A DNA stretch of 64,000 nt from Planctomycetota bacterium. Its GTDB lineage: Bacteria; Planctomycetota; UBA8108; UBA1146. Numbering within the stretch: the first letter of the stretch is position 1; each line of letters begins with the position of its first letter. Shown piece by piece: positions 17,976 to 64,000 of the stretch. The notes beneath the pieces were generated by a model. The model had not been told where the DNA came from. It made no database searches and saw only the letters and a program-made list of their open reading frames with translations. A program made the position numbers and the translations under genes. The stretch is from assembly GCA_014240375.1 (NCBI GenBank), contig JAAZXB010000002.1, forward strand, positions 124,001 through 188,000. Direction: 5' to 3'.

Positions 17976-18261
17976 CATCGAACTATTTGCAGTCGCCCAT
18001 CTCTGACAGCCCGCAGCGATCTGTGTTGCTTCACAGCCTGCTGGAGTTCGCACCACCCTCGGATTGAACTTCTCATTCCTGCCACCTGTAGCATTCTGCA
18101 GCAGGCCATTAGTCAGGCACTGCTTGTTAGAATACGATCGATGACATGAAGAGGCTTGGGGCCAACTTGGATGGCCCCAGTCACATTATTTAGTGTGCCG
18201 CCAACTATTACATGGCCTGCCAGAGCGACTATCGGTCTGGACCTTCGAGTTCGGTTCCCCC
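17976..18261. other. Intergenic region upstream of the 18262 gene
   Basis: No open frame of gene-like character is seen between the terminator and the ATG at 18262. The region presumably holds the promoter of the next gene, but no clear -10/-35 pair or operator could be identified. The start at 18262 lacks an obvious ribosome site. Confidence 0.5.
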
Positions 18262-20271: not shown

Positions 20272-20539
20272 ATTCCCTGGTTAACCCCTGCAAGAACTAC
20301 CTAAATGAACTTTCTGGTCCTTGACCCAGCCCGTTGTCCCGGTAAATTTGACTTATAGGGCTGAATCCTTCTCCTTTTGATTTCTGGGTCAATTGTAGCC
20401 CAGGTTCAAATAGGTCTGAGATTATCGGGGTTCAACCAACGGGTCCAAATTCACAGTTTTCGATCTTGAGGTATCTGCGAAACAAGCCAACTGGCTGGGA
20501 CAAATTCGTCTCCGTTTTCGCTCGGAAGGGATTGGGTTG

Positions 20540-24062: not shown

Positions 24063-24278
24063 ACTCACGGATCAGCGATATGAATTGAGAAAAATTCGCG
24101 TAGAGAACTGGAGGCGAGCGGCTCGCCGTTGGGTTCAACAACAGATGACGAAACATTTCGGCTAGAGTTGGATCCATCCGATACCTTCGTTGCGAGGAAC
24201 AGGTGTTCCGAATACGATGCTGTGCTGGGTGTGTGTCAATTACTCATCGTTTCCCTTGATCGCGAGACTGCATCTCGT

Positions 24279-24313
24279 GGATTCGTACATGAATCCGTTC
24301 AGGGATTCGTACA
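24279..24313 (+). promoter_or_regulatory. Candidate operator before the 24327 gene
   Basis: The 10-mer GATTCGTACA occurs at 24280-24289 and again at 24304-24313, the second copy abutting the AGGAGG ribosome site. The first copy is part of a perfect dyad GGATTC-GTACAT-GAATCC at 24279-24296. The same 10-mer is found in the palindromic region upstream of the BlaI-like repressor gene (1538-1547). The rest of the 370-bp intergenic region between 23954 and 24326 contains a terminator and nothing else recognised. Confidence 0.4.
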
Positions 24314-24326
24314 GGAGGTCAATATC

Positions 24327-27300
24327 ATGAAATCGCTCTCCATCGCAGTTCTACTGGTACTGCTCATCTCGGTCTTTCCCGGTGCTCTTTCTGGCCAGGT
24401 GGTCATCAACGAGGTGCGCATCGATCAGTCCGGTTCTGACGCCGATGAGTACTTTGAGCTCGCGGGTCCTGCAGGCCAATCGTTGACCGGGCTCTCCTAT
24501 ATAGTGCTCGGCGACAGCTCCGCGGGTAGTGGCTCCGTCGAAGCGGTGGTCACGCTGTTTGGCCAGACGATTCCTGGCAGCGGCTTGTTTGTCGCTGCAG
24601 AGGCGACCTTCACCATCGGCGTGGCAGACTTCACCACTGATCTGAACTTCGAAAACAGTGATAATGTGACTCACATGCTCGTCTCCGGTTTCACCGGTGT
24701 CGTCGGAGACGATCTGGATACTGACGACGACGGAATCCTCGATTCCACTCCATGGAGTTCCATCGAGGACGATTTCGCCCTGCTGGAAAATCCGATCGAT
24801 CCCGTCACTGGCAACACCTCAGCCGGTGAACTGGTTTACAGTCAAAACACCATCGGACCCGATGGAACCTTCACCCCCGCCCATGTGGTGCGCTGCCCCG
24901 ATATTTCGGGAGGCTGGGAGATCATGCCATTTGCTGATCTGGGTGCTCCCTTCGACACCCCAGGATCTCTCAATACCTGTCCTGAAGTTTGTGACAACGG
25001 TGCCGATGACGATGGGGATGGAGATACCGATTGCGCCGATCTCGATTGCGCAGGGGACCCTAGCTGCGCCCCCACTCCACCCAACGATGATTGCACCACA
25101 GCCACTGCGCTGATCGAGGGTGTCTTTGGTTTCACCACCCTTGGGTCCTCCACCGACGGCCCGACCAACTGCGGTGGCAGTTTGCTCAACGATATCTGGT
25201 TCCTCTACACGGCGTCCTGTAGCGGTACCGTCACCTTTTCCACCTGCAACACAACCAACTTCAATCCGCAGATGGCCATCTACCCCGGTAGCAGCCCCTG
25301 CCCTCCGGCAGTCGATTCCTTCCTCGCCTGCGATGCAGGAAGTTGTAGTGGCTCTGGTGAACCGGAAATCTTCCTCGATGCCATTGCCGGTGAGGACTAC
25401 TTGATCCAGATCGGTGGATTCAACGGAGAACGCGGCGACGGGACACTGACCATCAGCTGTCCACCTGCAGATTGTCATCAGTTCCCCAACCCCAACATCG
25501 AGTATGGCGGATTCGTCGGGACCTTGGTGAGCAATGCTCCGGCCGCTCCCATCACCGATACAGCACCCGCCTTCGACCTGATCGACGTCACCAGCGGTGG
25601 TACGATTGCCGATCTGGACGTGGGCGTCGAGATCACCCACGCATTCATCGGGAATCTCGACATCGATGTGGTAGCACCGTCTCAGACACAGATCCGTCTC
25701 TATCAGAATGAAACCAATTCCGATGATGACATGTCACTCATCTTTGACGATGAGGGTGTTGCTTACGGCAGCGTGACCACCTGGAGCGGCTCTCGAATGC
25801 AACCGTATGAGTTGTCGCAGGGCACCGGCTCCCTCGCCAACTTTGACGGGGAACCCGCCAACGGAACCTGGGGAATCATCATCGCCGACACCTTCCCGGG
25901 ATCCGCTGGAGGTACTCTGGACCAGTGGTTCCTGCAGATCAGCCAGCCACTGGCGATCCCCGATGGAACCTCCTTCTCCGAGAACCAGATCCTCATCGAT
26001 CCGACCGATACCACGGGAATTCTTGACCTCGATATCGACATCGACATCACCCATGGCGATGCATCCGATCTCGAGGTCGATCTGGTCTCCCCTCAGGGGA
26101 CCTCGATCCGACTGCACGACCATGGGGCTGGAACCGATCTGCTGGGACGCTTCGACGATGCCACCGGCTCCAACGACGGCTTCGGCGGACTGATCCCCTC
26201 GGGCCCTGGAACACTGGCTGACTTTGACGGTGAAGCGGTGGGAGGCGCCTGGACGCTGACCGTTGCAGATACCATCTCCGGCATCGAGGGCTCCCTCAAC
26301 GGCTGGGCGCTTCAGGTCTGTCCGGCAGACTGCGCCCCACCGACGGACCTGCTGTTGACCAGTAACTGCGGCGACGGCACCGTCAGCCTCTCGTGGATCA
26401 GCAACTCACCCTACGACAGCATCCAGATCGATCGAGATGGAGCCCCCCTCGATACCGTGGCGGGTACAGCCTCCGACTACACCGACCTCACCGCCTCCGA
26501 CGGATTCCATGACTACACCGTTCGAGGAATCTGTCCGGTTGGAGCGGCTTCCGTCGAGGAATCCATCACTCACTACTCCTACAATGGAGAGGACACCATC
26601 GTGGTAGCGCTCGAAGGGCTGTTCGATGGAGGCGATACCGGAGCCAACGATTCAGGACAGGCGATCCTCGACAGTTTGCTGGCGGCAGGGGCCAATGCTC
26701 GCCTGATCCGCACCCAGATCGATGAGTACGCCTGCCTCGATCCGCAAACAGTGTCCCAGGTGTGGATCACATGTGGCACCTACCCGACAGACTTCAACCT
26801 CACATCGGAGGAGGCGAACCTCATCGCCGACCTCGCCGCTGCGGGTGTAGCGATCTACTTCGAGAGTGCAGATCACTGGAGCTTCAACCACCCCATCTCC
26901 TCTTTCGACGATCGAGATGGAGTTGCGGAGCCGTATGCACAGGATGAGAACGACTCGTTGACATCGATCGACGGAGTCGATTCGGGTCTAGGGATCGACA
27001 TGTCCGGTAGTCAGAACGTGAGTTACAACCAGGATTCCAGTGGCAATGATTACAACAACTACCTGATTCCTGCATCGGCAGAACTCGCAGGTGGAAATGC
27101 TGGTCTGGTGTGGCAGTACGACGATGCCATCGGCAATATCGATCCGAACCTGGGTGTCACCACGGCATATCTGCCGGCCACCGGTGCTCCGGTCATCTGC
27201 TCCTCCTTCGAACTGGGGGGCATGGGAAGTGCCGCAGATCGAGATGCCGCAGTTGCTGCCTATCGGGCCTTCTTCGGCGGAGGTCCGCCTCCACCGACAG

Positions 27301-27575
27301 GAGGCTTCCAGCGGGCTGATTGCAACGCAGACGGAGCATTCAACATCGCCGACGCCGTCTTCACACTGGCGAATCTCTTCTCCGGTGGACCCGAGAGTAC
27401 CTGCGTCGACGCCTGCGACTCCAACGACGACGGCAGCATCAACATCGCCGATGCGGTCTTTGCTCTGGCGACTCTCTTCAGTGGAGGTCCCAATCCTCCA
27501 GCACCGTTCGGGGACTGCGATGCCGATCCGACCTCCGACTCCCTCGAGTGCGTGGAGTACAACAGCTGCCCCTGA
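24327..27575 (+). CDS. Large secreted protein: lamin-tail-like domain, PPC-like, two P-domains, FN3, Rossmann-like domain, dockerin-like tail
   Basis: 1082 residues; the ATG at 24327 follows AGGAGG at eight bases. Signal peptide 1-24. Residues about 25-215 resemble a lamin-tail domain (VVINEVRIDQSG, DADEYFELAGPAG). A Cys/Asp linker (VCDNGADDDGDG) and a PPC-like module (about 250-375) follow. Two domains (about 384-544 and 545-664) resemble proprotein-convertase P-domains (HAFIGNLDIDVVAP, NGTWGIIIADTFPG; DASDLEVDLVSPQG, GGAWTLTVADT). FN3 (about 670-750), the alpha/beta domain (about 754-984, starts VVALEGLFDGG) and two EF-hand loops (DCNADGAFNIAD, DSNDDGSINIAD) complete it; it ends YNSCP. No protease catalytic domain is present, so the P-domains probably act in binding or stability. 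Confidence 0.87.
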   Translation: MKSLSIAVLLVLLISVFPGALSGQVVINEVRIDQSGSDADEYFELAGPAGQSLTGLSYIVLGDSSAGSGSVEAVVTLFGQTIPGSGLFVAAEATFTIGVADFTTDLNFENSDNVTHMLVSGFTGVVGDDLDTDDDGILDSTPWSSIEDDFALLENPIDPVTGNTSAGELVYSQNTIGPDGTFTPAHVVRCPDISGGWEIMPFADLGAPFDTPGSLNTCPEVCDNGADDDGDGDTDCADLDCAGDPSCAPTPPNDDCTTATALIEGVFGFTTLGSSTDGPTNCGGSLLNDIWFLYTASCSGTVTFSTCNTTNFNPQMAIYPGSSPCPPAVDSFLACDAGSCSGSGEPEIFLDAIAGEDYLIQIGGFNGERGDGTLTISCPPADCHQFPNPNIEYGGFVGTLVSNAPAAPITDTAPAFDLIDVTSGGTIADLDVGVEITHAFIGNLDIDVVAPSQTQIRLYQNETNSDDDMSLIFDDEGVAYGSVTTWSGSRMQPYELSQGTGSLANFDGEPANGTWGIIIADTFPGSAGGTLDQWFLQISQPLAIPDGTSFSENQILIDPTDTTGILDLDIDIDITHGDASDLEVDLVSPQGTSIRLHDHGAGTDLLGRFDDATGSNDGFGGLIPSGPGTLADFDGEAVGGAWTLTVADTISGIEGSLNGWALQVCPADCAPPTDLLLTSNCGDGTVSLSWISNSPYDSIQIDRDGAPLDTVAGTASDYTDLTASDGFHDYTVRGICPVGAASVEESITHYSYNGEDTIVVALEGLFDGGDTGANDSGQAILDSLLAAGANARLIRTQIDEYACLDPQTVSQVWITCGTYPTDFNLTSEEANLIADLAAAGVAIYFESADHWSFNHPISSFDDRDGVAEPYAQDENDSLTSIDGVDSGLGIDMSGSQNVSYNQDSSGNDYNNYLIPASAELAGGNAGLVWQYDDAIGNIDPNLGVTTAYLPATGAPVICSSFELGGMGSAADRDAAVAAYRAFFGGGPPPPTGGFQRADCNADGAFNIADAVFTLANLFSGGPESTCVDACDSNDDGSINIADAVFALATLFSGGPNPPAPFGDCDADPTSDSLECVEYNSCP

Positions 27576-41513: not shown

Positions 41514-44500
41514 TCAATTACAGGAGTTGTACTGAGCACAATCCAGTGCGGTTCCTGCCGGATCGGGTCCACACGCCCCGCCGAAGGGTGCCGGCGGTGG
41601 AGGACCTCCCGAGAAGAGATACGAGAGCAGGTAAACCCCGTCAGCGATGTTGGAAAGTTCATCATCGTTGGTATCCGAGGCATCCATGCAGTTGATCGCT
41701 CCACCGAGGAACAGCGCATCGAGAACCGTGATCGCATCCGCCAGATTGATCAGTGAATCGTCATTGACATCGGAGCGCACGAAACCACCCACCCCTGGGA
41801 TGAGGGTGATGGTGCCATCCATCCCGACGGCACCGAGCGCAGCGGAGTTCACGACCACCACTACCTGAACCGGTGGAACTCCAAGGTTGCTCGAGATCGA
41901 CAAGGTGGTCAGCACATCTGTCGACGCTCCAGCGAGAGTTCCAGGAACGGTGTCGTAGCTGGCGATCGCCAGTTCGATGGCTGTTGCGAACTGGATGGTG
42001 CCAAGTCCCAGGAAACTGTAAACACAGCCCATCGTGAACCCATCGGTGAACAGATTCACATCGATGAAGTCTGGCCCGGTAGCGCCATTGAGCTGGTCGA
42101 TCACTGGCCCACCCGCCGCTGCCACCACCGTCAAGATCGAAGGATCATGCGCCGCACCGAAGGAGAAGCCCTGGGTCTCATTGGGGTATCCGGCATTCCC
42201 CGGATCTTCTTCGAGGGTGAAGGAAGCATCAAAACTGGCCACCCCTGTCGACTGCGAGAAGCCCACCGCCTGGTCGACGGCGCTGAGGATGAAGCCCGAA
42301 GGTGTCAGGGTCACGATCGCTCCGGTCGGAATCACACCCACTGCAGTCCCGGAATCGGTCGAGATGACCGCCTCCACCGGCGGGGATCCCAGCGATTCGG
42401 AGAAATCGAGTGGAGAGATCACCGTACCTGAAGTGGTATTGAAGACTCCCGGTAACGATTCGTAGTGGACCGAAGCCAGATCGGTATCGCTGATCATCTG
42501 AATCGTCTCGGCAAAGGTGAAGCTGTAAACACAGCCCACCGTGATGCCAGCGGGGTAGTTGGCCGAGTCGAAGAATTGCGGACCGGCTCCGCCATCGAGC
42601 AGGGCTACCGGTCCAGCCGGTGCCGCATCGACTGCGGCGAACAGATCAGGATTGTGTGCCAGACCGAAAGAGAAGCCGGCAGTATTGGTCGGGTACCCCG
42701 GGTGATCGGTAAACTCGCGCCCGGTGATGGTCGTTTCGAACTGAACTCCGGCAGCGCTGTAACCGGCGCTGACATTCTGAGCCACCAGGCTGAACCCGGC
42801 AGTCTGACTGACCGTCACGATGCAAGTCACCTCGGGGGCTTGCTGGCTGCCTCCACAGACTCCAGTCACTCCGTAGATATGATCACCGAGGGCGGCGGAT
42901 CCATCGGTGAACCCGGTTGCAGAGCCGGCCAGGGTCTGGATCAGCAGTCCATCTCTACGCACCGCGATCTCGCTGTAAGTCTCTCCATTGACCCATGAGA
43001 GGTTCACATTGGAACCGCTTCCCTGGCCACAACTCAGTGAGCCTACCGCATCACAGACGCAATCGGGGTCTCCGATACAATCGGGATCCTCGCAGTCGGT
43101 CAGCCCATCCAGGTCGTCATCGACTCCATTGGAGCAGTTCTCGGGAGGGGGCGGAGCAGTGGCAGACTCGATCTCCAGTATCCCTGTTCCGCTGGCGGTT
43201 TGATTCCACCCACCCACTCGTATGAGATACAGAACTCCGCTGGTCATCGACATCTGGACCAGGCTACTGAATCCTGGGCAACCGGGGCCATCCCCGTTAC
43301 AGGCGACCTGGGTCAGGGCTCCGCAATCGCCCTGATAGATGACGATGTCAGAATCGAAGTCGATGGTGCCACAGGTGGAAATTGTGTAATCGCCACTCAG
43401 GTCCGGAGTGAACTCAAACCAGACATCACTGGTCATCTCGCCGAGAAAACTGCCGGGACAACTGTTGGAGTCGTAAGGGTCAGCACTCTGGGTCGCAGTG
43501 GTGGTATCGAGCGTGTTCGATCCGAAAACGGCGACCGCAGCGGAGACACATTCATCTCCCGGAGCCACCGGTACGCAAGCGGGATCGGTGACACAATCGA
43601 GATCCTCGCAATCGACCAGACCATCGCCATCATCATCGACACCGTTACTGCAGTTCTCGACCGGTCCCGACGGGGTGAGATCGAGCAGCAATGCGCCGGG
43701 TCCCGGATCTCCATTGCCCGGATGCGGGGTGCCCCAGGCACCGACACGGAACCAGTAGGTCTCCCCAGCTGTGACGCTAGCGGTCAATTCCGACCAGTAC
43801 TGCTGACACGCGGTCGAAGGGTTCTGACTCACATCTCCATTACAGGCGACCAGGATCAGCGAGTTACAAGACCCCGCGTACATCACCAGGTCGGAGTCAA
43901 AACTGCCCGGCTGACAGGTCGAAACGAACAAGTTTCCTGACTGGTCCGGAGTGTAGGTGAACCAGATATCTCCGATCATCGACCCGAGACCATCGCCGCA
44001 CAAAGCCGGAGTGGGAATCGGATCGGTTCCTGTGGTCGCACCGGTGCTGTCGAAGGGATTCTCACCCAGCACCGCCGCTTCAGCAGAGACGCACTCGTCC
44101 CCCGCAGGAGGAGGAACACAGGCGGGTGCCGCGGCGCAATCGGGATCCTCGCAATCGATCCACCCGTCGCCATCGTCATCGACGCCGTTGGTGCAGTTCT
44201 CCACCGCTCCTCCGCCGCCGCCAACAAACCCGACATCCAGTTGCCCGGTGCCGGTGGTTCCGTCACTCCAGGAGGCGACACGGATCTGGTAGGTCAATCC
44301 ACCACTGACCGGAATGTTTTCGATGAGGGATGTAAATGTGGAACAGCCCCCGGTATCTCCGTTGCAGGCGATCTGGGTCAAGGACCCACAATTCCCGCTG
44401 TAAACCAGTACATCGGTATCCCAGTTGGCGATGTCACAGGTACTGACCGTGAGCAATCCATCTTCAGGTGGCACGTAGGAGTACCAGATGTCATTCCCGA

Positions 44501-46289
44501 CATCCCCGAGGAAGGTACCGCTACATTGGCTCGCATCCGCGGCCGGCCCACCGGTGGTGGCGTTGTTGCTATCGATACTGTTGAGACCCACAAATACCGG
44601 CACCGAACCGGCGCAGTCATCATTGGCGGGAGGAGGTCCCGGAGGAGCCTGTCCGCAGACCAGTTCCGACATCCCCACGGCCGTCATCGCAGCCGCGACT
44701 TGATCGGCATCCGATTGCGTGAAGGTCGCACCGGCCGCGCCGGTGCGGGGATCATTGGGGGCACTTCCCACCAGGTCGGCGGCGGCCTGATTCATCAGCG
44801 TATCCGCCACCGGGAAGGTGGTTCCCGATGTCATGTATACGGTCAAGGCTCGGAAGTACACGGCGATCGCCTTGGTCATGCCAATCGCCGAAACGGTCTG
44901 ACCATTGTAGGTCTTTCCATCGACGAGCATGGCGAAGGAGTGGTTGAACACTCCACTGCCGATGTGGACTCCGCCATTGTCAAAGGGACCACAAGCGTTC
45001 TGATTGTAGAGCGGGTCGGTGGTACTGGGAGGATCATTGAAGCACTCGGGGAACCACATGTCTCGAATCGGTCCCAGGCTGGTCTGTTCACCCATCATCC
45101 AGCGGGTAGATCCATCGTTGCAAGAGGTTCTCGGGTTGTTGGGAGTATCCATTCCGCCGCCGGTGGTTCCTCCGGGCCATGGAGTGCCGCCGGGGGGGCC
45201 CACTTCCGATGTGTTGCCGTTCCACAGATCGATCGCCTCCCCGAAGATATCGGAATAGGATTCGTTCAACTGGCCCGACTGGTTCTGATAGATCAAGCCT
45301 GCCGAGAACTGGGTGAGCCCGTGGGCAAATTCGTGTGCGATCACATCATCCGTGGCCAGACCGTTGCACAGTGCGATCTGATTCCCGTTCCAGATGGCAT
45401 TGGGGCAGATTCCATCGTTCCAGTGCACGGTGGCGGTCAACGTCGAGCCGTTTCCGTTGAGAGAATCGCGGCCGAGTCCATCGAACAGCAGTCGATAGAA
45501 GTCTCCTGCGGTGTCGTATCCCTCATCGATGTCGGTGTCGCCGCTGGCCGAAGAACCTTCCGAGCGAGCCAGGCTTCCCGGCAAGGTGCCTCCCCCGCCG
45601 TCATAGATCTCCCGGAACATTGCACTGTGGACCGCCGGCCAGTGATCGAGTAGCTCGCCACTACTGGCGGCAATCAGCACATGCTCGGCGAGCATCTCAG
45701 GCCCCTCAACAACCAGGTGATGAGCCAGTACCGGTCGAGGCAGGGGAGCATCTCCCCACCAGCCAGGATTCACCACGGCCAGCTGGGGCTCTTCTGTCTG
45801 CACCAAAAATTGCTGCTCGAGTAACGACCCGGCGATCATCAACGCCTCTTCCGAGGTCAAGACCGGCGTCACTGACAACTTCTTGGGTAAGCGAAAGAAA
45901 TCACCGTTGATGGAGAGCGGAGTTCCATCCGCTTGCAGGTGAACCTTGATCACAGCGGTGAAGACATCCACTCCCAGATGAACCTGCTGAAAGGTGTGGT
46001 GAATCATCCCAAGAGAGCATCGCTCGGTCTTGATGATCTTCAACTGTTGCTCGGGATGCTGGATCCCGAAGCGAGCGCCGTGATAGCGTAATACCTGGTA
46101 TGGATCTTTCAGGTTCGGGGCGACGCCCTCTGGAAACGGCAATGGTTGGCCGTCGACTCCTGAAATCATGTGAACTCTACTCCCCGGGGTCGCGTTCTCG
46201 ACCACTCCCTGGAGCCACGACTGACCCGATCCAGTCGTTGGAATCATGCACTGAATCAGCAGAACGCACACAGCGATCATGGCTCGCAT
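41514..46289 (-). CDS. Giant secreted M4 (thermolysin-type) metalloprotease with PPC-like, cohesin-like and dockerin-like modules
   Basis: 1591 residues; ATG at 46289 (GAAAGGTG site) begins a signal peptide ending TTGSGQ. An FTP-like propeptide (about 55-145) precedes the M4 catalytic domain (about 230-560) with zinc site HEFAH (about 319-323) and the third ligand Glu in NESYSDIFGE. PPC-like modules follow, with three Cys/Asp linkers such as CTNGVDDDGDGWIDC. After an FN3-like segment come two cohesin-like domains (TAGFSFGLAHNPDLF and TQGFSFGAAHDPSIL). The tail has EF-hand loops DVNDDSLINLAD and DTNDDELSNIAD and ends YNSCN. The catalytic core looks intact, so it probably degrades protein outside the cell, possibly surface-bound. 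Confidence 0.9.
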   Translation of the reverse strand: MRAMIAVCVLLIQCMIPTTGSGQSWLQGVVENATPGSRVHMISGVDGQPLPFPEGVAPNLKDPYQVLRYHGARFGIQHPEQQLKIIKTERCSLGMIHHTFQQVHLGVDVFTAVIKVHLQADGTPLSINGDFFRLPKKLSVTPVLTSEEALMIAGSLLEQQFLVQTEEPQLAVVNPGWWGDAPLPRPVLAHHLVVEGPEMLAEHVLIAASSGELLDHWPAVHSAMFREIYDGGGGTLPGSLARSEGSSASGDTDIDEGYDTAGDFYRLLFDGLGRDSLNGNGSTLTATVHWNDGICPNAIWNGNQIALCNGLATDDVIAHEFAHGLTQFSAGLIYQNQSGQLNESYSDIFGEAIDLWNGNTSEVGPPGGTPWPGGTTGGGMDTPNNPRTSCNDGSTRWMMGEQTSLGPIRDMWFPECFNDPPSTTDPLYNQNACGPFDNGGVHIGSGVFNHSFAMLVDGKTYNGQTVSAIGMTKAIAVYFRALTVYMTSGTTFPVADTLMNQAAADLVGSAPNDPRTGAAGATFTQSDADQVAAAMTAVGMSELVCGQAPPGPPPANDDCAGSVPVFVGLNSIDSNNATTGGPAADASQCSGTFLGDVGNDIWYSYVPPEDGLLTVSTCDIANWDTDVLVYSGNCGSLTQIACNGDTGGCSTFTSLIENIPVSGGLTYQIRVASWSDGTTGTGQLDVGFVGGGGGAVENCTNGVDDDGDGWIDCEDPDCAAAPACVPPPAGDECVSAEAAVLGENPFDSTGATTGTDPIPTPALCGDGLGSMIGDIWFTYTPDQSGNLFVSTCQPGSFDSDLVMYAGSCNSLILVACNGDVSQNPSTACQQYWSELTASVTAGETYWFRVGAWGTPHPGNGDPGPGALLLDLTPSGPVENCSNGVDDDGDGLVDCEDLDCVTDPACVPVAPGDECVSAAVAVFGSNTLDTTTATQSADPYDSNSCPGSFLGEMTSDVWFEFTPDLSGDYTISTCGTIDFDSDIVIYQGDCGALTQVACNGDGPGCPGFSSLVQMSMTSGVLYLIRVGGWNQTASGTGILEIESATAPPPPENCSNGVDDDLDGLTDCEDPDCIGDPDCVCDAVGSLSCGQGSGSNVNLSWVNGETYSEIAVRRDGLLIQTLAGSATGFTDGSAALGDHIYGVTGVCGGSQQAPEVTCIVTVSQTAGFSLVAQNVSAGYSAAGVQFETTITGREFTDHPGYPTNTAGFSFGLAHNPDLFAAVDAAPAGPVALLDGGAGPQFFDSANYPAGITVGCVYSFTFAETIQMISDTDLASVHYESLPGVFNTTSGTVISPLDFSESLGSPPVEAVISTDSGTAVGVIPTGAIVTLTPSGFILSAVDQAVGFSQSTGVASFDASFTLEEDPGNAGYPNETQGFSFGAAHDPSILTVVAAAGGPVIDQLNGATGPDFIDVNLFTDGFTMGCVYSFLGLGTIQFATAIELAIASYDTVPGTLAGASTDVLTTLSISSNLGVPPVQVVVVVNSAALGAVGMDGTITLIPGVGGFVRSDVNDDSLINLADAITVLDALFLGGAINCMDASDTNDDELSNIADGVYLLSYLFSGGPPPPAPFGGACGPDPAGTALDCAQYNSCN

Positions 46290-46571
46290 GGATGCACCTT
46301 TCTCATTGGAATTCACGAATAACAATCTTGGTTGGATTCAGAGCCCAAAAACAACAATCCCGTCCAGCCAGACCAGAACTCATCGCCCATCTCCACCTCC
46401 TTCGATGGTAGCCACCGCAACTCTCGATGGCAACTCTCGATGGCAACGAGCGGATCCCCACTCAGATCGGCTCCTGGTCGTCCCGCTCCGGCTCATCCGG
46501 CAATCGATACCGGAATTCCACCATTTCCGGAGAACCTCAGCCGCCGTCGAGTGGTGCCGCGGGAGACCGAC
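46290..46571. other. Intergenic region upstream of the M4 protease gene
   Basis: No gene is supported. A direct duplication of CAACTCTCGATGG occurs at 46418-46430 and 46431-46443. The promoter for the protease gene probably lies here, since a strong terminator for the preceding gene sits just to its right. Confidence 0.5.
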
Positions 46572-46614
46572 AAAAATCCAGGGCCGCGAGTCTCGCTGGA
46601 CTCGCGGCCCTGGA
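46572..46614 (-). terminator. Rho-independent terminator after the cohesin-like protein gene
   Basis: A perfect 16-bp hairpin with arms TCCAGGGCCGCGAGTC (46577-46592) and GACTCGCGGCCCTGGA (46599-46614) and loop TCGCTG. On the minus strand it is followed by a run of five T (46572-46576). It lies about 40 bp after the stop of the gene ending at 46655. Confidence 0.94.
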
Positions 46615-46654
46615 TCGATGAAATAGGGTCCATCTACCGGTCAACCCAACCCCC

Positions 46655-48031
46655 TCAGGAGCAGGAGTCGTACACCTCACACCCGAGCGCACCGGGGGTC
46701 GGATCGGGAGCGCAACTACCGGTTCCAGGAGGCATCGGGCCGCCATTGAACAAGGCCGCCAGCATGTGCACGGCATCGGCAATGTTCCCCTGGTTATCGT
46801 CATTACTATCGCAAGCGTTGGCGCAACCGATGGCTCCACCCAGAAAAAGGCCATCGAGCAGGGTGATCGCATCTCCGATGTTGAAGCTGGAATCGTCGTT
46901 GCAATCTCCACGATTGAATCCACCGATCGCCGTGAGCAATACGCTGCCCGCTTGACCGGTCATGTCGATCGATTGCCCATCCACCACCATCACCATGGTG
47001 ACTGCTGTCGGCCCGAGGCCGCTGGTCGGTGTCAACGTGGTCGAGATGCTATCTCCCGGAGGCGTGCCGGCCAGCGGTCCTGGGACCGTGTCATACTGGA
47101 CCAGCACTGCTTCTGTCGGTGTGCCGAAGCCGATGAAGGCTCCTCCCTGAAAATCGTAGATGCAACCGACGGTGATTCCACCGCTGAGGATTCCGACATT
47201 GAAGAACTCCGGGCCGGTTCCCCCTTCAAGATTCGCCAACGCTGCGCCATAGTCGACTGCGGTGGCCTCGAGTACAGCGGCGTCATGGGCCACTCCCAGT
47301 GAGAATCCCTGGGTCTCTGCAGCAGTATCGCCCGGCTCCACGTCCTGATCGATCTGCACGGTTCCTGTGAAGGATCCGACCCCTGTGGAGGAACTGAAAG
47401 TTGCTGTCTGATCGACACAACTCACCTCGAAGGCCATCGGAGGAGCGGCCTGAAAGGTGATCGAAAAGGGCATTCCAGAGGTCGGTGCCGAGGAACCGGC
47501 TCCGATCACCACGACGGTGGTGGCGGGCGGAGTTCCGAGGTCGCTGGCACTGCTGATGGTGGTGACCACATTTCCGGTCGATCCCGAAAGGGCTCCCGGA
47601 ATCGTCGCGTAATCCACCTCGATCATCGGCAGTGGAGTCGCGAAGGTGATGACCTGGGACTGATCGACGAATGCGTAGATCACTCCGACTGTGAAGCCAT
47701 CGGTGAACACCTCACCCTGGATGAAATCCGGTCCTGTGCCGCCATTGAGCGCGGCCAGTGACCCGACAGGAGTCGGGATATAGGGGTTGGATCCCACCAC
47801 TTCCAGCAAGGTCGAATCGTGACCGTAGGCCATCGAAAAGCCCTTGGTCTCCTCGAGTGCACCCGTGACCTGCACGATGCTGAAGGTTGCACTGAATGTT
47901 GCAGAACCTCCGCCCGCAGCGACGGTTTGATCCGGGGATGAGATTTCAAAAGTCTGCCCCAACGCCACAGATGCGGTGAAGAGCACAAACATCGAAACAA
48001 AAATACAGGGAATTAGACCACCATGACGCAT
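46655..48031 (-). CDS. Secreted protein with two cohesin-like domains and dockerin-like tail
   Basis: 458 residues from the ATG at 48031 (AGGAAGAGG site). Signal peptide about 1-25. Two related domains (about 27-195 and 200-370) each contain the block TKGFSMAYGHDSTLLE or TQGFSLGVAHDAAVLE, then GGTGPxF and GxTVGxIYxF. These resemble cohesin or motility-type beta sandwiches and match two domains in the M4 protease next to it. The tail has loops DCNDDSSFNIGD and DSNDDNQGNIAD with hydrophobic helices and ends YDSCS. No enzyme motif; likely a scaffolding or adhesive surface protein. Confidence 0.85.
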   Translation of the reverse strand: MRHGGLIPCIFVSMFVLFTASVALGQTFEISSPDQTVAAGGGSATFSATFSIVQVTGALEETKGFSMAYGHDSTLLEVVGSNPYIPTPVGSLAALNGGTGPDFIQGEVFTDGFTVGVIYAFVDQSQVITFATPLPMIEVDYATIPGALSGSTGNVVTTISSASDLGTPPATTVVVIGAGSSAPTSGMPFSITFQAAPPMAFEVSCVDQTATFSSSTGVGSFTGTVQIDQDVEPGDTAAETQGFSLGVAHDAAVLEATAVDYGAALANLEGGTGPEFFNVGILSGGITVGCIYDFQGGAFIGFGTPTEAVLVQYDTVPGPLAGTPPGDSISTTLTPTSGLGPTAVTMVMVVDGQSIDMTGQAGSVLLTAIGGFNRGDCNDDSSFNIGDAITLLDGLFLGGAIGCANACDSNDDNQGNIADAVHMLAALFNGGPMPPGTGSCAPDPTPGALGCEVYDSCS

Positions 48032-48313
48032 TGAAACACCTCTTCCTGACACCTGGATCCAGCACTCAGGCCACAAGACCTCCGGAAGGATACCCTTCCG
48101 AATAATCAGGGATGATAGTGGTCAGTCCCGAGCGAAATCCGAGCATCCAAACTGTTTATTACAGCGAGCTATGACTTGACTGATAACGAAGAGAGCACCC
48201 GAAGGAGTAGCACACTCCGCTCCAGTCTAACTCTTAGGATACCGTTGCAATTGGAAACCTCAAGCACGGGCAATCCACTGTTGTGTATCTATCCTGCAAC
48301 AGCGCACTATTCA

Positions 48314-50526: not shown

Positions 50527-53466
50527 CTAGGGGCACCCCAACACCCCGACACAGTCGAGCAGATCCGCGGTCGGATCCTCGCCACAGGTGGGGAAGGGGA
50601 GCGGCGGGGTAGCGCCTCCACTGAAGAGGAAGCCGAGCAGGAAGACCGGATCGGAGATATCCCCCGAACCATCATCGTTGGCGTCGAGCGCATCGACACA
50701 TCCACTGCTTCCGCCACCAAACAGAAAGTTCAACATTCCCACGGCATCGGAGATATCGATCGAACCGTCGCCATTGGCATCGGCGCGGACAAACTGCTCG
50801 ATCGGATCATCGACAAAGATGCCCGCAGCATCGGGACCGCCAAGAGCCGCGATCGCCGCGTCTCCCATCCGCGCATCGACGATGGCGAGGTTGGCGCAGC
50901 GCACCAGCGACACATCGGAATCGGGCCCGTTGTCGCTCAGCATCCAGACCGGTAGGCCGCTTCCTTGCGAGTAGAGCCAGTCGGGGGCGACCAGTTCATC
51001 ATCTCCCAGCACCTTGACACCGTTGACAAACAGCGCCGAGGTGTTGTTCTGGTAGTCGACCCGCTGGGCGATGCGAACCCACTCACCGAGGTTCCAGGAG
51101 CCCGCGCCAACATAGCCATTCCCTGCGTTGTAGAAGGCCCCATCGCTGCATCGGAGAAACAACTCCGCATCATTATTATTGGTCGCATTGCCCTGCCACA
51201 GCGCCTGCAACTGGGTCTGGCTGCTATCGAGAAAGACATCGAAGATCAGCGTGAAGTGATAAGCATCACAGCAACCTCCCCCACCATTGCCGGGGGCGTT
51301 GAAGTAGGTCTCGAGACCTCGCCCCGATCCGAAGACGTTGTCGAGCCAGAGGTAGTCCACCGGTTGCTGATCGATGTGGGGGACCTCGCTGCCATCGCTG
51401 ACTGCGGTTCCCCACTCCACATCGTGAAACATCCCTCGTGGAGTCAGCACCGAAGAACCCAGTTGCGCCACCAGCGCCAGGTCATCGGCGGGAGACCCAT
51501 CATCGAATCTCCACTCGGTAGTGAACTGGGTCGGATAATTCAGATCGGTGGTGAAACTCCACGTCGGACCCTCGGTCACCTGGGAGCCGAGATGGGAATC
51601 GATGCGCCAGAAGTAGCCGGTCATTTCATCGAGGAGACCGGGATCGAAGGTGGTCGCGAGTTGATTGCCCTGGAAGTCGCCGGCACCGAGGGTTGCGGTG
51701 CTGCCCAGGTAGACGTCGTAGGAATCGGCCGGATCGCAGGGGAACCACTGCAACAGTGGAGTACTGGAGACGTGGAGATCGCCATCGGCGGGGATCGGTG
51801 CGGATGCGCCGGCAGTGGAATCTCCGACCTGAAAGGTCGTTTCCACCGACCAGTCACTCCAACCGAGACTGCGATCGCGATAACGCACCCGCCAGTACAC
51901 CGAGGTGCAACCAGGCAGTGCAACATCCAGGCAAGTATGGGTCATGTCCGGATCCACCACGGTGTCGATGCTGATTCCAGGATCGACTGCCGGGGTGCGG
52001 TACCAGTTCTGGAAGCGTCTCCACTGATCGACCACCGGGTTGTTGTAATCTCCCGAGGTGAGAGACACCTGCCACTGACTCTCGATGTGGTCATGGCCAT
52101 CTGGGTCGAGGTAAGGACTGGCACTGAGAACCACACCGTCCCCCGGGATCACACCTGAACCGGGACCCGGAGAGAGGGGGATCGGCGTCTCAGGGGAGGT
52201 GTTGTAGCGCTGGATGTAGATGTCATCGATGATCTCATTATCGCGAAAGATGTAATCATTGCCGCGACTGATCCTCCTCAAGCGGAATGCTGGATCTGCC
52301 CCCGCCTCGACATCCATCAGCACGAATCCCCACTCCGGAACGCTGAACTCGAACTCCTGGTAATCAGCATTGGGATAGAGGCCCCAGTAATCGAGCGATC
52401 CCATGGCACTGGCCACGTTCACCATGGTGTGTGAATGGTCGCGGCTCTGGCCCCGCGAGTACCCATGGGTATGACCGAAGAAGTGAACCGATGGCTTGCC
52501 GGTCAAGGTGCTGAATTGCTCGACCATGCTGACCATCTGGCTGCTAAAAAGGGTTTCGCCCGGGGTCCAGATCTCCGACTTGTGTGGGTGGTGAAACTGG
52601 GCAAAGACGAAATCGATCCGGTCATCGATGGAAGCATCTTCCAGAACCAGAGCGAGCCAGTCCAACTGTTCCTGGATGCGATAGCCGGGATTGGTATCGA
52701 GGGTGATGACCCTGACATTGCGATGATCGAGATAATGCCAGTGCTCCTCGTAACCAGCGGTACCGTTGGTCGGCAATTGCAGGTAATCGAAGTAATACTG
52801 CGCATCCGCCTCATGATTTCCCAGCGCAGGAATCAGCGGCACATGCCGATAAAGCAGTTTCGCCTGAGCAAAGAAGTGATCCTGCCAGTGCGAATGATTG
52901 GATCCGGTCGAGACCAGATCTCCCGGTACCAGTGAGAAGGAGAGACTTCGATCGAGGGGCAAGCCGTACTCCTGCGCGCAGAAGGAAATCACCCCTTCAT
53001 CGATCACCTCTCGATGCTTGATGCCGTTGCTTCCGTACTGGCAATCGGAATAGGCGATGAAACGAAACGGGCTCTCATCGGTGAGTGGCGGTGGAGTGCT
53101 GAAAAAGTGGGTCGCACTGATGATGGTTCCGCTGGTCACCCGGTAGTAATAACGGGTATCGGGAGTGAGACTCGACAGTTCCACATGGTGAATGAAAGCT
53201 CCGCCACCGCTGGCGATGCTGGTACCGCTCGACTGCTGGCCAAGGGCACTGGTGAGACCATACTCCACCAGACTCTGGCTACTCACCGCAGTCTCCCAGC
53301 CGATCACCATCGAGGAGGGGGTCGGGGACTGCAGATACGGCTCCACCAGCAGGTTTCCGACCTGAGATTGTGCCGGCGTCGACAGCGCCAGCAGCAGTAG
53401 CAGCGGAAGTGACCGGGAAGGTTTCAATGAAGCTACAAATGAAAGTGCCTGCGCTTTTCTTCTCAT
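50527..53466 (-). CDS. Secreted purple-acid-phosphatase-like metallophosphoesterase with dockerin-like tail
   Basis: 979 residues; ATG at 53466 after GGGAAGGG. Signal peptide about 1-35. An FN3-like N-domain (about 40-130; RYYYRVTSGT) precedes the calcineurin-like domain: IAYSDCQYGSNG, VPGDLVSTGSNH, ALGNHEADA, AQFHHPHK and FFGHTHGYSRG are its metal-binding blocks. Further beta domains with Trp-rich segments (VYWRVRYRDRSLGWSDWS) and a LamG-like region (about 720-890) follow. The tail has loops DANGDGSIDISD and DANDDGSGDISD and ends VLGCP. It is convergent with the amidohydrolase gene, 6 bp apart. Substrate unknown. Confidence 0.88.
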   Translation of the reverse strand: MRRKAQALSFVASLKPSRSLPLLLLLALSTPAQSQVGNLLVEPYLQSPTPSSMVIGWETAVSSQSLVEYGLTSALGQQSSGTSIASGGGAFIHHVELSSLTPDTRYYYRVTSGTIISATHFFSTPPPLTDESPFRFIAYSDCQYGSNGIKHREVIDEGVISFCAQEYGLPLDRSLSFSLVPGDLVSTGSNHSHWQDHFFAQAKLLYRHVPLIPALGNHEADAQYYFDYLQLPTNGTAGYEEHWHYLDHRNVRVITLDTNPGYRIQEQLDWLALVLEDASIDDRIDFVFAQFHHPHKSEIWTPGETLFSSQMVSMVEQFSTLTGKPSVHFFGHTHGYSRGQSRDHSHTMVNVASAMGSLDYWGLYPNADYQEFEFSVPEWGFVLMDVEAGADPAFRLRRISRGNDYIFRDNEIIDDIYIQRYNTSPETPIPLSPGPGSGVIPGDGVVLSASPYLDPDGHDHIESQWQVSLTSGDYNNPVVDQWRRFQNWYRTPAVDPGISIDTVVDPDMTHTCLDVALPGCTSVYWRVRYRDRSLGWSDWSVETTFQVGDSTAGASAPIPADGDLHVSSTPLLQWFPCDPADSYDVYLGSTATLGAGDFQGNQLATTFDPGLLDEMTGYFWRIDSHLGSQVTEGPTWSFTTDLNYPTQFTTEWRFDDGSPADDLALVAQLGSSVLTPRGMFHDVEWGTAVSDGSEVPHIDQQPVDYLWLDNVFGSGRGLETYFNAPGNGGGGCCDAYHFTLIFDVFLDSSQTQLQALWQGNATNNNDAELFLRCSDGAFYNAGNGYVGAGSWNLGEWVRIAQRVDYQNNTSALFVNGVKVLGDDELVAPDWLYSQGSGLPVWMLSDNGPDSDVSLVRCANLAIVDARMGDAAIAALGGPDAAGIFVDDPIEQFVRADANGDGSIDISDAVGMLNFLFGGGSSGCVDALDANDDGSGDISDPVFLLGFLFSGGATPPLPFPTCGEDPTADLLDCVGVLGCP

Positions 53467-53722
53467 CTTTGCCCTTCCCGGTGGATCGATGCCAGACCGT
53501 TGATCGGCGAGCGCCCGGCACCCGTGAAAAGAACGACTCTCGAAGTGCTGGAGCGGATCTGTAGGATTCCAATTCTCCCCATCCACCGCGGCAGAGTCAA
53601 CTGCTCAGATTGCAGGAGATTCCGGTCTCTTCCCTTCGATCCCGACATAATGGACAATCCGGTTCAGAGGTGACGAACTCAATGGTATCGATCCGAACGA
53701 ACAGAACACGGAGGCCCCTTCG

Positions 53723-60062: not shown

Positions 60063-61040
60063 ATGCCAGATTCATTTTCTCGGTCATCTCTGCTGTTGCT
60101 GTGCGGCTGCTTGTTGCTGCTGTTCCTGTCCTTCCCCACTTTCTGCCAGGCGCAATTCACTCCAACCCTGTCGACCAGTATCGATAATCTCGATTCAGCG
60201 CAATCGAGTGGGTTCATCCAGGATGGGTTCTTCTTCGAGGGTCAAGAGGGACCCTCTTCGATGCTGATTCAATTCGACCGCGGCTCCTTCGACTTCTCCA
60301 GCTATGCTCCTGGACAATCGGTGGGAAGCCTGGTCGTCGAGGTCTTCGTCAGTGTTATTTTCGTCACCATCTCAGGCGACATCATTGCGGATGTTCAGGT
60401 GACCTCGGTCGGTCCCGATACGATGCAGGCGATCGCAGTCATCACCGACATCACGGGAAATGTTTCGGCAGGTCTCTCGCTGCTGGGGATTGATCTCAAC
60501 ATCGGCGATACCGCATTCGATGTGCTCTATACCGATCTTCCCGGAGACACCGGAGCCACCATGAATGTCACCGACGCAGGAACCCTGCCGCTGAGTGGCA
60601 CTCTAGATTTCGACATTCCGCTGACCTGGACAACGGCTCCGATTCTCACTCACTCCCCATTCGGAGGAGATCTCGTCGTCGAAACGCTTCTCACTTCGAC
60701 CAGCGGGATCGAGGCGACCTTTAACGAGGTGTTCCCACTCAATGGGGGTACCACTGCGGATCCGGATCTGATGAACCGAGGAGATGCCAACCAGGACGGC
60801 ACTTTTGATATCAGCGACCCGATTACGATGCTCGGATTCTTGTTCAACAACCTGCCGGTATCTTGCGTACTGTCCTGCGATGCCAACGACGATAACAGTG
60901 TCGACATCGCGGATGCTGTCTTCTGCCTGAGCGGACTCTTTGGCAGCGGCGCTCAACCTCCTGCGCCACACGGTGCCTGTGGCGAGGATCCGACTCCGGG
61001 ATCGCTGAGTTGTCTGGAACTGAACAACAACTGTCCCTGA
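60063..61040 (+). CDS. Secreted dockerin-tagged protein, copy 1 of tandem pair
   Basis: 325 residues; ATG follows TAAGGAGG. Signal peptide about 1-31 (ends FCQAQ). The main domain (about 32-235) is unrecognised, beta-rich and nearly free of Cys; it contains MLIQFDRGSFDFSSYAPGQ and MNVTDAGTLPLSGTLDFDI. The tail has loops DANQDGTFDISD and DANDDNSVDIAD with hydrophobic helices and ends NNNCP. The next gene encodes a close relative, so the pair arose by duplication. Confidence 0.85.
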   Translation: MPDSFSRSSLLLLCGCLLLLFLSFPTFCQAQFTPTLSTSIDNLDSAQSSGFIQDGFFFEGQEGPSSMLIQFDRGSFDFSSYAPGQSVGSLVVEVFVSVIFVTISGDIIADVQVTSVGPDTMQAIAVITDITGNVSAGLSLLGIDLNIGDTAFDVLYTDLPGDTGATMNVTDAGTLPLSGTLDFDIPLTWTTAPILTHSPFGGDLVVETLLTSTSGIEATFNEVFPLNGGTTADPDLMNRGDANQDGTFDISDPITMLGFLFNNLPVSCVLSCDANDDNSVDIADAVFCLSGLFGSGAQPPAPHGACGEDPTPGSLSCLELNNNCP

Positions 61041-61058: not shown

Positions 61059-62030
61059 GTGTGTATCGATAATTCTCGATCATTTTCGACGGTTCTGGGC
61101 CGGGGATTGCTGCTCGTAACACTGGCGGTTTCCTCCCCCTGTTCCGCACAGTTCGACCCATCGGTGACCACCTCCTTCGACAACCTGCAGGGTGGTTTTG
61201 CGAGTGGGTTCAGCCAGGACGTACTCTTCCCCGAGGGCAGTGAAGGTCCCACCAGCCTCGTGATTCAGTTCGACCGAGGATCCTTTGATTTCACCGGCTT
61301 CGTTCCCGGCCAGCAGGTCGGCGCAGTCGTCTTCGACATCCTCATTCAAACTCCTGTCGTCATCGTCGCCGGACAGATCATCGCCGAGGTTCAAATCAGC
61401 ACGGTCAGTTCCGATACGATGAGTGCGATCGCAATGGTCACAGAGATCACCGGAAATGTTGCGGCGGGTCTTGCACTGCTGGGGTTCCCCAACCCAACAG
61501 GTCAGGTAGCATTCGATGTTCTCTTCACTGACTTGCCTGATGACACCGGCGGCATCATGAGTGTCACAGATGCGGGTAGCCTGCCCTTGACTGGAATTCT
61601 AGATTTCGATGTCCCACTGATCTGGACCACCGAGCCGATTTTCAGACACTCGCCGACAGGTGAAGACCTTGGGGTCAATACCATCTTCACATCCACAACG
61701 GGTGCTGTTGTCTCATTCGATGAACTGTTCCCAGTTGCGGATTCTCTGGGACCGGAGTTCCAGCGCGGGGACTGCAACACCGATGGCTCTTTCAACATCG
61801 CAGACGCCATTTTTTCACTGGATTCGCTCTTTGGCGGTGGAGTGGATGGCAGTTGCGGCGACGCATGCGATTCGAACGATGATGGGAGCATCAATATTGC
61901 CGATGCAATCTTCACCCTCGCTGCATTGTTCAATGGAGGCACGATGCCAGATCCTCCCACCCCTGGCTCATGCGGTTGGGATGAAACCAACAACGACACT
62001 CTCTTCTGCGCGGTGTACAACGCCTGCTGA
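61059..62030 (+). CDS. Secreted dockerin-tagged protein, copy 2 of tandem pair
   Basis: Up to 323 residues. The GTG at 61059 begins the frame, but its ribosome site (GGAG) is too close, so the true start is uncertain. The hydrophobic signal (LLLVTLAVSSPCSAQ) ends near residue 31. The main domain matches the upstream gene block by block (LVIQFDRGSFDFTGFVPGQ; MSVTDAGSLPLTGILDFDV). The tail loops are DCNTDGSFNIAD and DSNDDGSINIAD, ending YNAC. It lies 18 bp after the first copy and is probably co-transcribed. Function unknown. Confidence 0.82.
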   Translation: MCIDNSRSFSTVLGRGLLLVTLAVSSPCSAQFDPSVTTSFDNLQGGFASGFSQDVLFPEGSEGPTSLVIQFDRGSFDFTGFVPGQQVGAVVFDILIQTPVVIVAGQIIAEVQISTVSSDTMSAIAMVTEITGNVAAGLALLGFPNPTGQVAFDVLFTDLPDDTGGIMSVTDAGSLPLTGILDFDVPLIWTTEPIFRHSPTGEDLGVNTIFTSTTGAVVSFDELFPVADSLGPEFQRGDCNTDGSFNIADAIFSLDSLFGGGVDGSCGDACDSNDDGSINIADAIFTLAALFNGGTMPDPPTPGSCGWDETNNDTLFCAVYNAC

Positions 62031-62082: not shown

Positions 62083-64000
62083 TCAGGGGCAGACAGAAAA
62101 TGAGTCGCAACCACCGATAGTTCCCGCCGGGACACCACAGTCCGGGTAGGGAAACTCTGGTGGGGTTCCACCCTGAAAGATGAAGCTCAACTCCCCGATC
62201 ACATCCGATAGATCCAGCAGTTCGTCACCGTTGAAATCGAAAGCTGCCACGCAATCGACCTGCGCAGTTGCAAACAGATACTGCAGCATCCAGACCGGGT
62301 CGGAGATATCCATGCCGCCATCCTGATTTACATCACCTCGGATGAAAGCACTGCCCTGACAAACGTCGAGAACCCCATCCCCGTTGTCATCCGGTCCCTG
62401 GCACTCGTCTGGAATACCGTCGAGATTGCAATCAGTAGAGGTACCCGAGGCCAGGTCCACAGAATCGGCAACGCCGTTGCCATTGCAGTCGGGCGGTGGT
62501 CCCTTGGAGATGCTGAATACATCCTCATAACTACCATCGCTTCGAACCATCGTGGCTCCGAGGTTGGATCCGGAAAAGTTGAGCGCCAGTGACCCGAGTA
62601 CCGATCCTGAGTAATACATTGCCGGGTGATCCAGCGATCCGCTTCCCACCGTGCCGCTCGATCCCATGACGATGTACACGGTACCCTGATTCGGCGACGA
62701 GTCCTTCTGGTACCCTCCGTCTCCGAGCGGGTCTCCGTTACCACCATCAACGATGTGGAGTGCGGGGTTCCAGGTTCCACTGTTGCCATCGTGTCCGTCG
62801 ATCAGAAACGATCTTTCGTAAACATGGCTATGCCCCGACAGCACCAGGTCACAACCTCCTGCCTCGAGGATGGGTAACGCATTCTCTCTCATATCTCTCA
62901 TCCGACCGCCACTGTCAGCCACTTGGTCCGAATCGTGGGTCCCCTTGGTGTAGGGAGGATGATGAAAGAAGGTCACGATCCAATCCTGAGCAGTGCTCGC
63001 GAGGTCGAGTTCAAGCCAGGTCAACATCGGCGCAGTTGTAGAGAGGTCCGATCCTTCCGAGTCGAGACAGATGAAGTGCGCATTACCAAAATCAAAGGAA
63101 TAGAACGCTTCTGTCCCGGAAGCGACTCCTCCAGAGACTCCATCGGTCGGATTGGTTACCAGTCCGTAGTAGACCGAAGGCATCGTTTCGTGGTTTCCAC
63201 GTGTCGAGGCAAACGGTGTCTGGATCAACATCTGCTGGTAAACATTGAAGAACGCAGCCTGATACTGGGCATCGGTGCCAGAGAGATAGGCGTTATCCCC
63301 CAGCAATAACCACAGATCCGTGTATGTCGAATCCGAATAGGAATAGTAAGCATCTCGCACAAGTGCCTGGCTGCTATTTGCGGTTCCGAAATCTCCAATC
63401 GCCCACACACTGAAAGGGGTCGCAGATCCCGGGATGGGAGAAGTTTCGAAGAAGTGATTTGCGGAATCGCCTGCCAGGTCCTGGTCTGCCGTACCGATGG
63501 AATAGTAATAGCGGGTATCTGGCATCAAGCCAGTCAGCGCAACCTCATGGTCGATGGTAGTGGTCGATGTAGATACGGAACCTGTCAATGAACCTGCTTC
63601 GACCCCGAAGCGCACGCTACTGGTCGTTGCCGTATCGGTTCTCCATCGGACCGTGATCGAATCAGCTGTGACCCTCTGAAGATAAGGACCGCGCAGCACA
63701 GATGCTGGAGGCGGCGCACCTTCATTGATGACGACGGTGAGTTTCGGTCGCTCTGTTGTCTGAGTCGCCTCGCTACTTCGCAACACTGCTCCATTAGTTC
63801 CGCCGGTCGGCCGGAAAATCCAACCGCGGTTGCTGGCCGGGTTGACCGCCCATTGTTCGATACTGTGCAGTACATCGATGGACTGCGGCCCGGTAGCACC
63901 GAGTGCGGACCCGACCTCTAATCCATAATCTTCAGATTGCACGCCAGCAGCGGCTCCAAAACTGTTGAAAGTAGTCGGAGACGGTGGAGACCAGTCGACC
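62083..64000 (-). CDS. Secreted metallophosphoesterase with dockerin-like tail, N-terminus beyond the window
   Basis: The frame is open to the window edge, so the start lies beyond 64000. The visible N-terminal part (WIFRPTGGTNGAVLRSSEAT) resembles the end of a DNRLRE-type beta domain. An FN3-like purple-acid-phosphatase N-domain follows (TRYYYSIGTADQDL), then the calcineurin-like domain with WAIGDFGTAN, LLLGDNAYLSG, TRGNHETM, TFFHHPPYTKG and LSGHSHVYERSF. A short thrombospondin-3-like Asp-rich linker (DCNGNGVADSVDLASGTSTD) precedes EF-hand loops DVNQDGGMDISD and DFNGDELLDLSD. It ends FSVCP. Active-site residues appear intact. Convergent with the gene ending at 62030. Confidence 0.88.
   Translation of the reverse strand, partial: VDWSPPSPTTFNSFGAAAGVQSEDYGLEVGSALGATGPQSIDVLHSIEQWAVNPASNRGWIFRPTGGTNGAVLRSSEATQTTERPKLTVVINEGAPPPASVLRGPYLQRVTADSITVRWRTDTATTSSVRFGVEAGSLTGSVSTSTTTIDHEVALTGLMPDTRYYYSIGTADQDLAGDSANHFFETSPIPGSATPFSVWAIGDFGTANSSQALVRDAYYSYSDSTYTDLWLLLGDNAYLSGTDAQYQAAFFNVYQQMLIQTPFASTRGNHETMPSVYYGLVTNPTDGVSGGVASGTEAFYSFDFGNAHFICLDSEGSDLSTTAPMLTWLELDLASTAQDWIVTFFHHPPYTKGTHDSDQVADSGGRMRDMRENALPILEAGGCDLVLSGHSHVYERSFLIDGHDGNSGTWNPALHIVDGGNGDPLGDGGYQKDSSPNQGTVYIVMGSSGTVGSGSLDHPAMYYSGSVLGSLALNFSGSNLGATMVRSDGSYEDVFSISKGPPPDCNGNGVADSVDLASGTSTDCNLDGIPDECQGPDDNGDGVLDVCQGSAFIRGDVNQDGGMDISDPVWMLQYLFATAQVDCVAAFDFNGDELLDLSDVIGELSFIFQGGTPPEFPYPDCGVPAGTIGGCDSFSVCP

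Follow-up and report, generated by a model that had tools for sequence, protein, structure and literature searches.

The window analysed here is a stretch of 64,000 nucleotides from a Planctomycetota genome (lineage UBA8108, UBA1146; GenBank assembly GCA_014240375.1, contig JAAZXB010000002.1, positions 124001 to 188000), and it encodes repeated cohesin-like domains and dockerin tails. Two neighbouring genes on the minus strand contain four copies of the domain. The gene at 41514-46325 encodes a secreted, thermolysin-like M4 protease of 1603 amino acids. The protein comprises an FTP propeptide and a catalytic domain with HEFAH and a downstream NESYSD motif; the Peptidase_M4 and Peptidase_M4_C matches of a Pfam scan cover residues 273-522 (44760-45509). 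It further has three GBD_T9SS_assoc-like/acidic-disulfide repeat units and an Fn3-like segment (this segment and the number of units were read off the sequence), two cohesin-like domains (residues 1177-1342, 42300-42797, and residues 1344-1510, 41796-42296) and, directly after the second of these, a dockerin tail (residues 1511-1603, 41517-41795).

The neighbouring gene (46655-48076) encodes a secreted protein of 473 amino acids that we call the adaptor. It consists of a signal peptide, two cohesin-like domains (residues 40-210, 47447-47959, and residues 215-383, 46928-47434) and a dockerin tail (residues 383-473, 46658-46930). The gene is listed from a TTG start, but translation more probably begins at the ATG of listed residue 16. 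Adaptor and protease genes lie side by side in conserved order in ten loci of relatives, in which the adaptor sometimes has three cohesins.

The four domains of these proteins align over about 165 residues, with 27-38% identity to the first copy. Positions of the T, G-F-S, H and G-x-T-x-G-x-x-Y type are invariant or nearly so. The pattern T-x-G-F-S-x4-H-[DN] matches four times in the six-frame translation of the window, against 0.004 matches expected from composition and none in 50 shuffles. Alignment and pattern count thus bear out the four copies that a preliminary description of this DNA had reported in the two genes. The core of the motif given there is present in every copy, but its continuation as [LI]-[LF] fails in the fourth, which has V-L after H-D. 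That description had also noticed a looser relative in the gene at 1594. This gene (1594-3774, minus strand) encodes a secreted protein of 726 amino acids whose C-terminal part is one diverged cohesin-like domain (residues 475-639, 1858-2352) followed by a dockerin tail (1597-1860). The relative is real: it is a fifth, diverged copy, found by the iterated profile with an E-value of 4.6e-23 and predicted to have the same fold.

The repeated domain is a divergent cohesin by profile and by predicted fold. A profile built from 79 copies of the genome was searched against PDB sequences, with matches listed up to an E-value of 10. Cohesins make up 29 of the 30 matches, with E-values from 1.6e-7 to 0.55; the remaining match is a weak one to an antibody chain. 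AlphaFold2 models were made from alignments of window and relatives' sequences for the cohesin and dockerin of the gene at 1594 (predicted local distance difference test, pLDDT, 80.6) and for the two-cohesin adaptor (pLDDT 86.4). The best cohesin match of the former in the PDB has a Z score of 14.7 over 133 residues, with a root mean square deviation (rmsd) of 2.1. For the latter, the second domain of the adaptor gives a Z score of 16.5 over 140 residues and an rmsd of 2.1. The top 47 PDB rows for the gene at 1594 are cohesins, the dockerin 8x39 being among them, and so are the top 42 rows for the adaptor. A non-cellulosomal cohesin from Archaeoglobus (2xdh) is among the fold matches of both models.

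The preliminary description had guessed at a cohesin fold and had named structure prediction as one check. This check returns cohesins first for both models (Z scores 14.7 and 16.5), and the profile search agrees, so the guess was right. A Big-like or generic Ig-like identity was considered and rejected; non-cohesin sandwiches start at rank 48 (Z score 9.4) for the gene at 1594 and at rank 43 (Z score 10.5) for the adaptor.

Existing family models hardly recognise the domain. Pfam and NCBIfam scans of the full M4 protease and adaptor give it no name, and the four domains score below the cut-off of the Pfam Cohesin family (PF00963). At its curated cut-off this family has one match in the whole genome. 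It matches seven of the 79 domain members at an E-value of 1 or less, and no other Pfam family matches more than a single member. As the PF00963 cut-off is not reached, we describe the domain as a separate cohesin family, outside PF00963 as presently drawn.

In the PDB profile alignments the GFSxGxxHD block of the domain aligns with the cohesin stretch ending in YDxxxL. In the type I complex of Clostridium thermocellum, residues of the strand at this stretch contact the dockerin. By analogy, the GFSxGxxHD strand may play the same dockerin-contacting role in the planctomycete domain. The best-conserved positions in 83 copies include G42 (85%), D50 (78%) and small residues next to these.

The tails are dockerins, again by profile and by predicted fold. 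The window contains eleven of them, which align with two calcium-loop repeats. A tail profile searched against the PDB finds dockerins first (E-value 3.3e-5). The tail part of the model of the gene at 1594 has two helices, as in dockerins, and fits the double dockerin 8x39 with a Z score of 9.8 and an rmsd of 1.9 over 70 residues. In both repeats the loop positions D, N, D, D/N and D are kept in 83-100% of 142 tails from the genome, with D and N counted together at the fourth position. At loop positions 10 and 11, which determine the specificity of known dockerins, both repeats have I/L/V and A/S/G, respectively. Unlike classical dockerins, these tails end in a cysteine-rich extension of about 30 residues with three more conserved cysteines. 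Pfam Dockerin_1 matches six of the eleven window tails at an E-value of 1 or less, the best at 3e-7. In a Pfam scan of 101 tail-bearing proteins, made in sets of 71 and 30, it matches 13 and eight proteins respectively at an E-value of 0.001 or less.

Both modules are abundant in the genome, which comprises 3.39 Mb in 120 contigs. A profile of the four domains has 61 matches and iteration brings the number of cohesin-like domains to at least 85, so that the four copies described earlier, although correct, understated the scale. The tail profile has 150 matches. The modules are distributed over 151 proteins, 52 with cohesin and dockerin, 93 with dockerin only and six with cohesin only. Proteins with both modules, which the preliminary description had suggested could polymerise into a surface network, are the rule. 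Fifteen proteins have two cohesins before the dockerin and four have three (19 in total).

The position of the tails suggests a different reading, in which the tail is a C-terminal sorting or surface-attachment signal, recognised by an export or anchoring machine of its own. The cohesin-like domain would then be no more than a stalk and would not bind the tail. Of 146 tails, about 135 stop no more than a few residues short of the C-terminus. The conserved cysteine-rich end, absent from classical dockerins, also speaks for this reading, and the tails outnumber the cohesin-like domains. In five proteins, however, the dockerin directly follows the signal peptide, a place where a C-terminal sorting signal could not sit. 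These are two proteins with CxxCH haem-binding motifs, a DUF1800 protein, a penicillin amidase and an alpha/beta hydrolase-like protein. The tails have also kept the calcium-loop residues and the dockerin fold, and a matching cohesin family is found in every tail-rich genome. We consider a sorting signal unlikely.

The cohesin-only proteins include candidate surface anchors. Two of the six are cut by contig ends and one, of 2009 amino acids, has a diverged tail. The other three are complete, and all have a lipobox at the start and a cohesin at the very C-terminus. By the same rule a lipobox is found in none of the 52 proteins with both modules (Fisher p 4e-5 for 3/3 versus 0/52) and in one of the 93 dockerin-only proteins. 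The anchor lipoproteins consist of He_PIG Ig-like repeats and a terminal cohesin. Anchor matches are found in all 16 genomes of the family, the match being weak in one (G005). In 15 of the 16 there is a lipobox protein that has its cohesin at the C-terminus and lacks a dockerin; in three of these 15 the lipobox was read by eye, as it lies behind an upstream start or is missed by the rule, and in one (G004) the anchor gene is split into two frames. A longer protein adjoining the anchor likewise carries a lipobox in those loci where the sequence included its start. These lipid-anchored proteins, absent from the earlier reading, would provide attachment to the surface, provided that they face outwards.

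In the genome one locus (L040, 2732-10453, contig C31) contains, in a row, a short lipoprotein anchor, a long lipoprotein anchor with 15 He_PIG stretches and a cohesin-plus-dockerin protein, and several relatives have a similar gene order. The single lipobox protein of the dockerin-only group (1711 amino acids, L037, 926-6058) adjoins a large cohesin array. In this array (L037, 6299-19847, and L038, 739-3470; contig C43, 46-63 kb) about ten genes on the same strand each encode one to three cohesins and a dockerin. A second array of cohesin-dockerin genes is found at L047 (contig C120, 68.5-79.5 kb). The 2009-residue protein with the diverged dockerin (L039, 3475-9501) has three cohesin-like domains, two of which lie apart from the third, with a very long stretch of calcium-binding-like DxDxDG repeats in between.

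The anchors are relevant to the role of the cohesin next to the dockerin. In type II scaffoldins an X-module stabilises the dockerin that follows it, and the tail-adjacent domain could likewise fold against its own dockerin and stabilise it, while the dockerin would bind something else. In nearly every two-module protein the last cohesin is separated from the dockerin by 0-5 residues. In a tree of the domains, moreover, dockerin-adjacent and inner cohesins cluster by position, with 13 changes versus 30 in shuffles. Such clustering also follows from whole-gene duplication, and a functional division into cohesin types is not claimed from it. The anchors carry the domain without a dockerin in the chain, and many dockerin-adjacent copies share a supported clade with the anchor cohesins. 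There are also 93 dockerin proteins with no such neighbouring domain, and both the sequence and the fold of the domain match cohesins. A stabilising role of this kind is in our view distinctly improbable.

The proteins that carry the tails are diverse. Frequent or striking domains among the 101 scanned proteins are FG-GAP, P_proprotein (seven), HYR (four), PKD, di-haem cytochrome c peroxidase, metallophosphoesterase (Metallophos in two of the 71), penicillin amidase, endonuclease I and peptidases M4, M9 and M12B. No glycoside hydrolase, cellulase or cellulose-binding module is found among the 25 commonest Pfam families of either set. Many of the co-occurring domains are adhesive or Ig-like, and the folds of cohesins and carbohydrate-binding modules are related sandwiches. 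The cohesin-like domains could on these grounds be adhesins that bind particles through their carbohydrate or protein, and the dockerins would then have some other, unrecognised partner. The PDB profile matches of the domain are nevertheless all cohesins apart from the antibody chain, and the same genomes hold large numbers of dockerins. Adhesins of this kind seem to us very improbable.

The domain is characteristic of one class, which we take from isolate names to be mainly marine. It is found in all 29 sampled genomes of the class and in four of 363 others of the phylum. These four (G116, G213, G366 and G378) belong to one family of another class and each contain exactly one strong copy (E-value about 1e-36), perhaps acquired by transfer. 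Named relatives are mostly planctomycete metagenome-assembled genomes, and a few records under other phylum names are probably misassigned. The tails follow the same distribution, occurring in 29 of 29 class genomes with at least 59 scored matches each, and at least 87 in most; outside the class they are found in three of 30 genomes, one or two in each. In one genome of 9.1 Mb the first-look tail candidates, which are unconfirmed, reach 772. Pfam Cohesin has only 0-5 matches in the same class genomes. As it sees at most a handful of the domains per genome, surveys that rely on Pfam would miss the system.

We propose that the cohesins and dockerins probably form a surface assembly of three tiers. 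In this model the anchors, lipoproteins with a He_PIG stalk, would present a C-terminal cohesin at the cell surface. Adaptors, small secreted proteins with one to three cohesins and a C-terminal dockerin such as that at 46655-48076, would dock onto the anchors and link to each other in chains. The third tier, the clients, comprises enzymes and adhesive proteins that are secreted and have a dockerin but no cohesin; these would occupy the cohesins still free. Some enzymes have both modules and would be adaptor and client in one; the M4 protease, for example, with its two cohesins and a dockerin, could be a client and also a branch point. The binding of cohesin to dockerin would presumably need calcium, and with outward-facing lipoproteins the result would be a branched network keeping secreted hydrolases on the cell. 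The architectures correspond to the scaffoldin-client-anchor layout of the cellulosome type, with 19 multi-cohesin proteins that also have a dockerin, 93 dockerin-only proteins and lipoprotein anchors.

Several observations weigh against the three-tier assembly. Over the whole class the numbers of cohesin and tail candidates correlate poorly (rho 0.17); a correlation is seen only among genomes of the family (0.72) or when the numbers are taken per Mb (0.53). The linker of 0-5 residues is also expected of a structural partner module, and the four domains of the protease and adaptor fall short of the Pfam Cohesin cut-off. A three-domain AlphaFold2 model has a predicted template modelling score (pTM) of 0.52 and shows no confident arrangement of the domains, docked or otherwise.

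A wider reading is that the class gathers a large part of its secretome, with proteases, phosphatases and cytochromes among it, in a single lipid-anchored matrix built from a cohesin family of its own with position-specific types. The matrix would be a general external protein layer, not a polysaccharide degrader. We offer this tentatively, as a possibility that we do not favour. If the modules do bind, the system would have a new type of anchor and non-cellulolytic cargo, and would be a source of new cohesin-dockerin pairs for protein engineering. It would also rank, to our knowledge, among the largest cohesin-dockerin repertoires of any small genome.

The remaining dockerins of the window are in eight proteins with no cohesin. 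Five are encoded on the plus strand at 14389-17904, 18193-20271, 20537-23953, 24129-27575 and, as the first of a tandem pair, 60063-61040, the second of the pair being at 61059-62030 on the same strand. The two on the minus strand are metallophosphoesterase-like (50527-53586) and phosphoesterase-like (62083-63942, where the frame continues beyond the listed end) by sequence. The protein at 14389 has M4-protease-like repeats and a C-terminal dockerin. The proteins at 14389, 20537 and 24129 have a similar segment of about 200 residues before the tail, and two of the three show M4-protease-like repeats. The tandem proteins are homologous to one another, each having an N-terminal domain of about 230 residues and a dockerin tail.

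The closest known relatives of these modules include the cellulosomal cohesins (PF00963) and dockerins (PF00404) of Clostridium, Acetivibrio and Ruminococcus. The planctomycete modules resemble them in fold (Z scores up to 16.5), in profile similarity, in the calcium loops of the dockerins and in the architecture of anchor, adaptor and client. They differ in that the cohesins lie below the Pfam threshold and have a hallmark G-F-S-x-G-x-x-H-D block, and the dockerins have the cysteine-rich extension of about 30 residues. The planctomycete anchors are lipoproteins, whereas the cellulosome uses SLH or sortase anchors, and cellulases are not among the commonest planctomycete client families. The X-dockerin dyad of type II systems (CipA, ScaA) likewise has a sandwich domain directly before the dockerin, but in the planctomycete proteins the domain in that place is a cohesin, and there are lipoproteins that have it with no dockerin.

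Bacteria and archaea are known to have cohesin and dockerin modules that are unconnected with cellulose, and anaerobic methanotrophic (ANME) archaea are among them (PMC9012536). The ANME proteins and the Archaeoglobus cohesin 2xdh are similar to the present system in their non-cellulolytic use of the modules. The archaea known to carry them lacked large multi-cohesin scaffoldins (PMC9012536), whereas planctomycete proteins with two or three cohesins are common. No paper on the cohesin family described here was found in the one open-access library searched.

A further parallel is the 'planctosome', which was proposed for peptide degradation in freshwater planctomycetes, the Nemodlikiaceae (Andrei et al. 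2019, PMC6461901). As described, the planctosome comprises a few proteins and has a lamin-tail anchor. The two systems share planctomycete cohesin and dockerin modules with no link to cellulose, peptidase, P-proprotein and HYR partners, and proposed anchor and adaptor roles. Partners of the planctosome type recur among our 101 proteins as M4, M9, M12B, P_proprotein and HYR. The present system has at least 85 cohesins, about 150 dockerins and lipoprotein anchors and extends over a whole class. The planctosome idea becomes testable with a handful of purified modules. The present system fits this idea and differs from the planctosome in its lipoprotein anchors, its size and its class-wide spread, and perhaps in having a cohesin family of its own.

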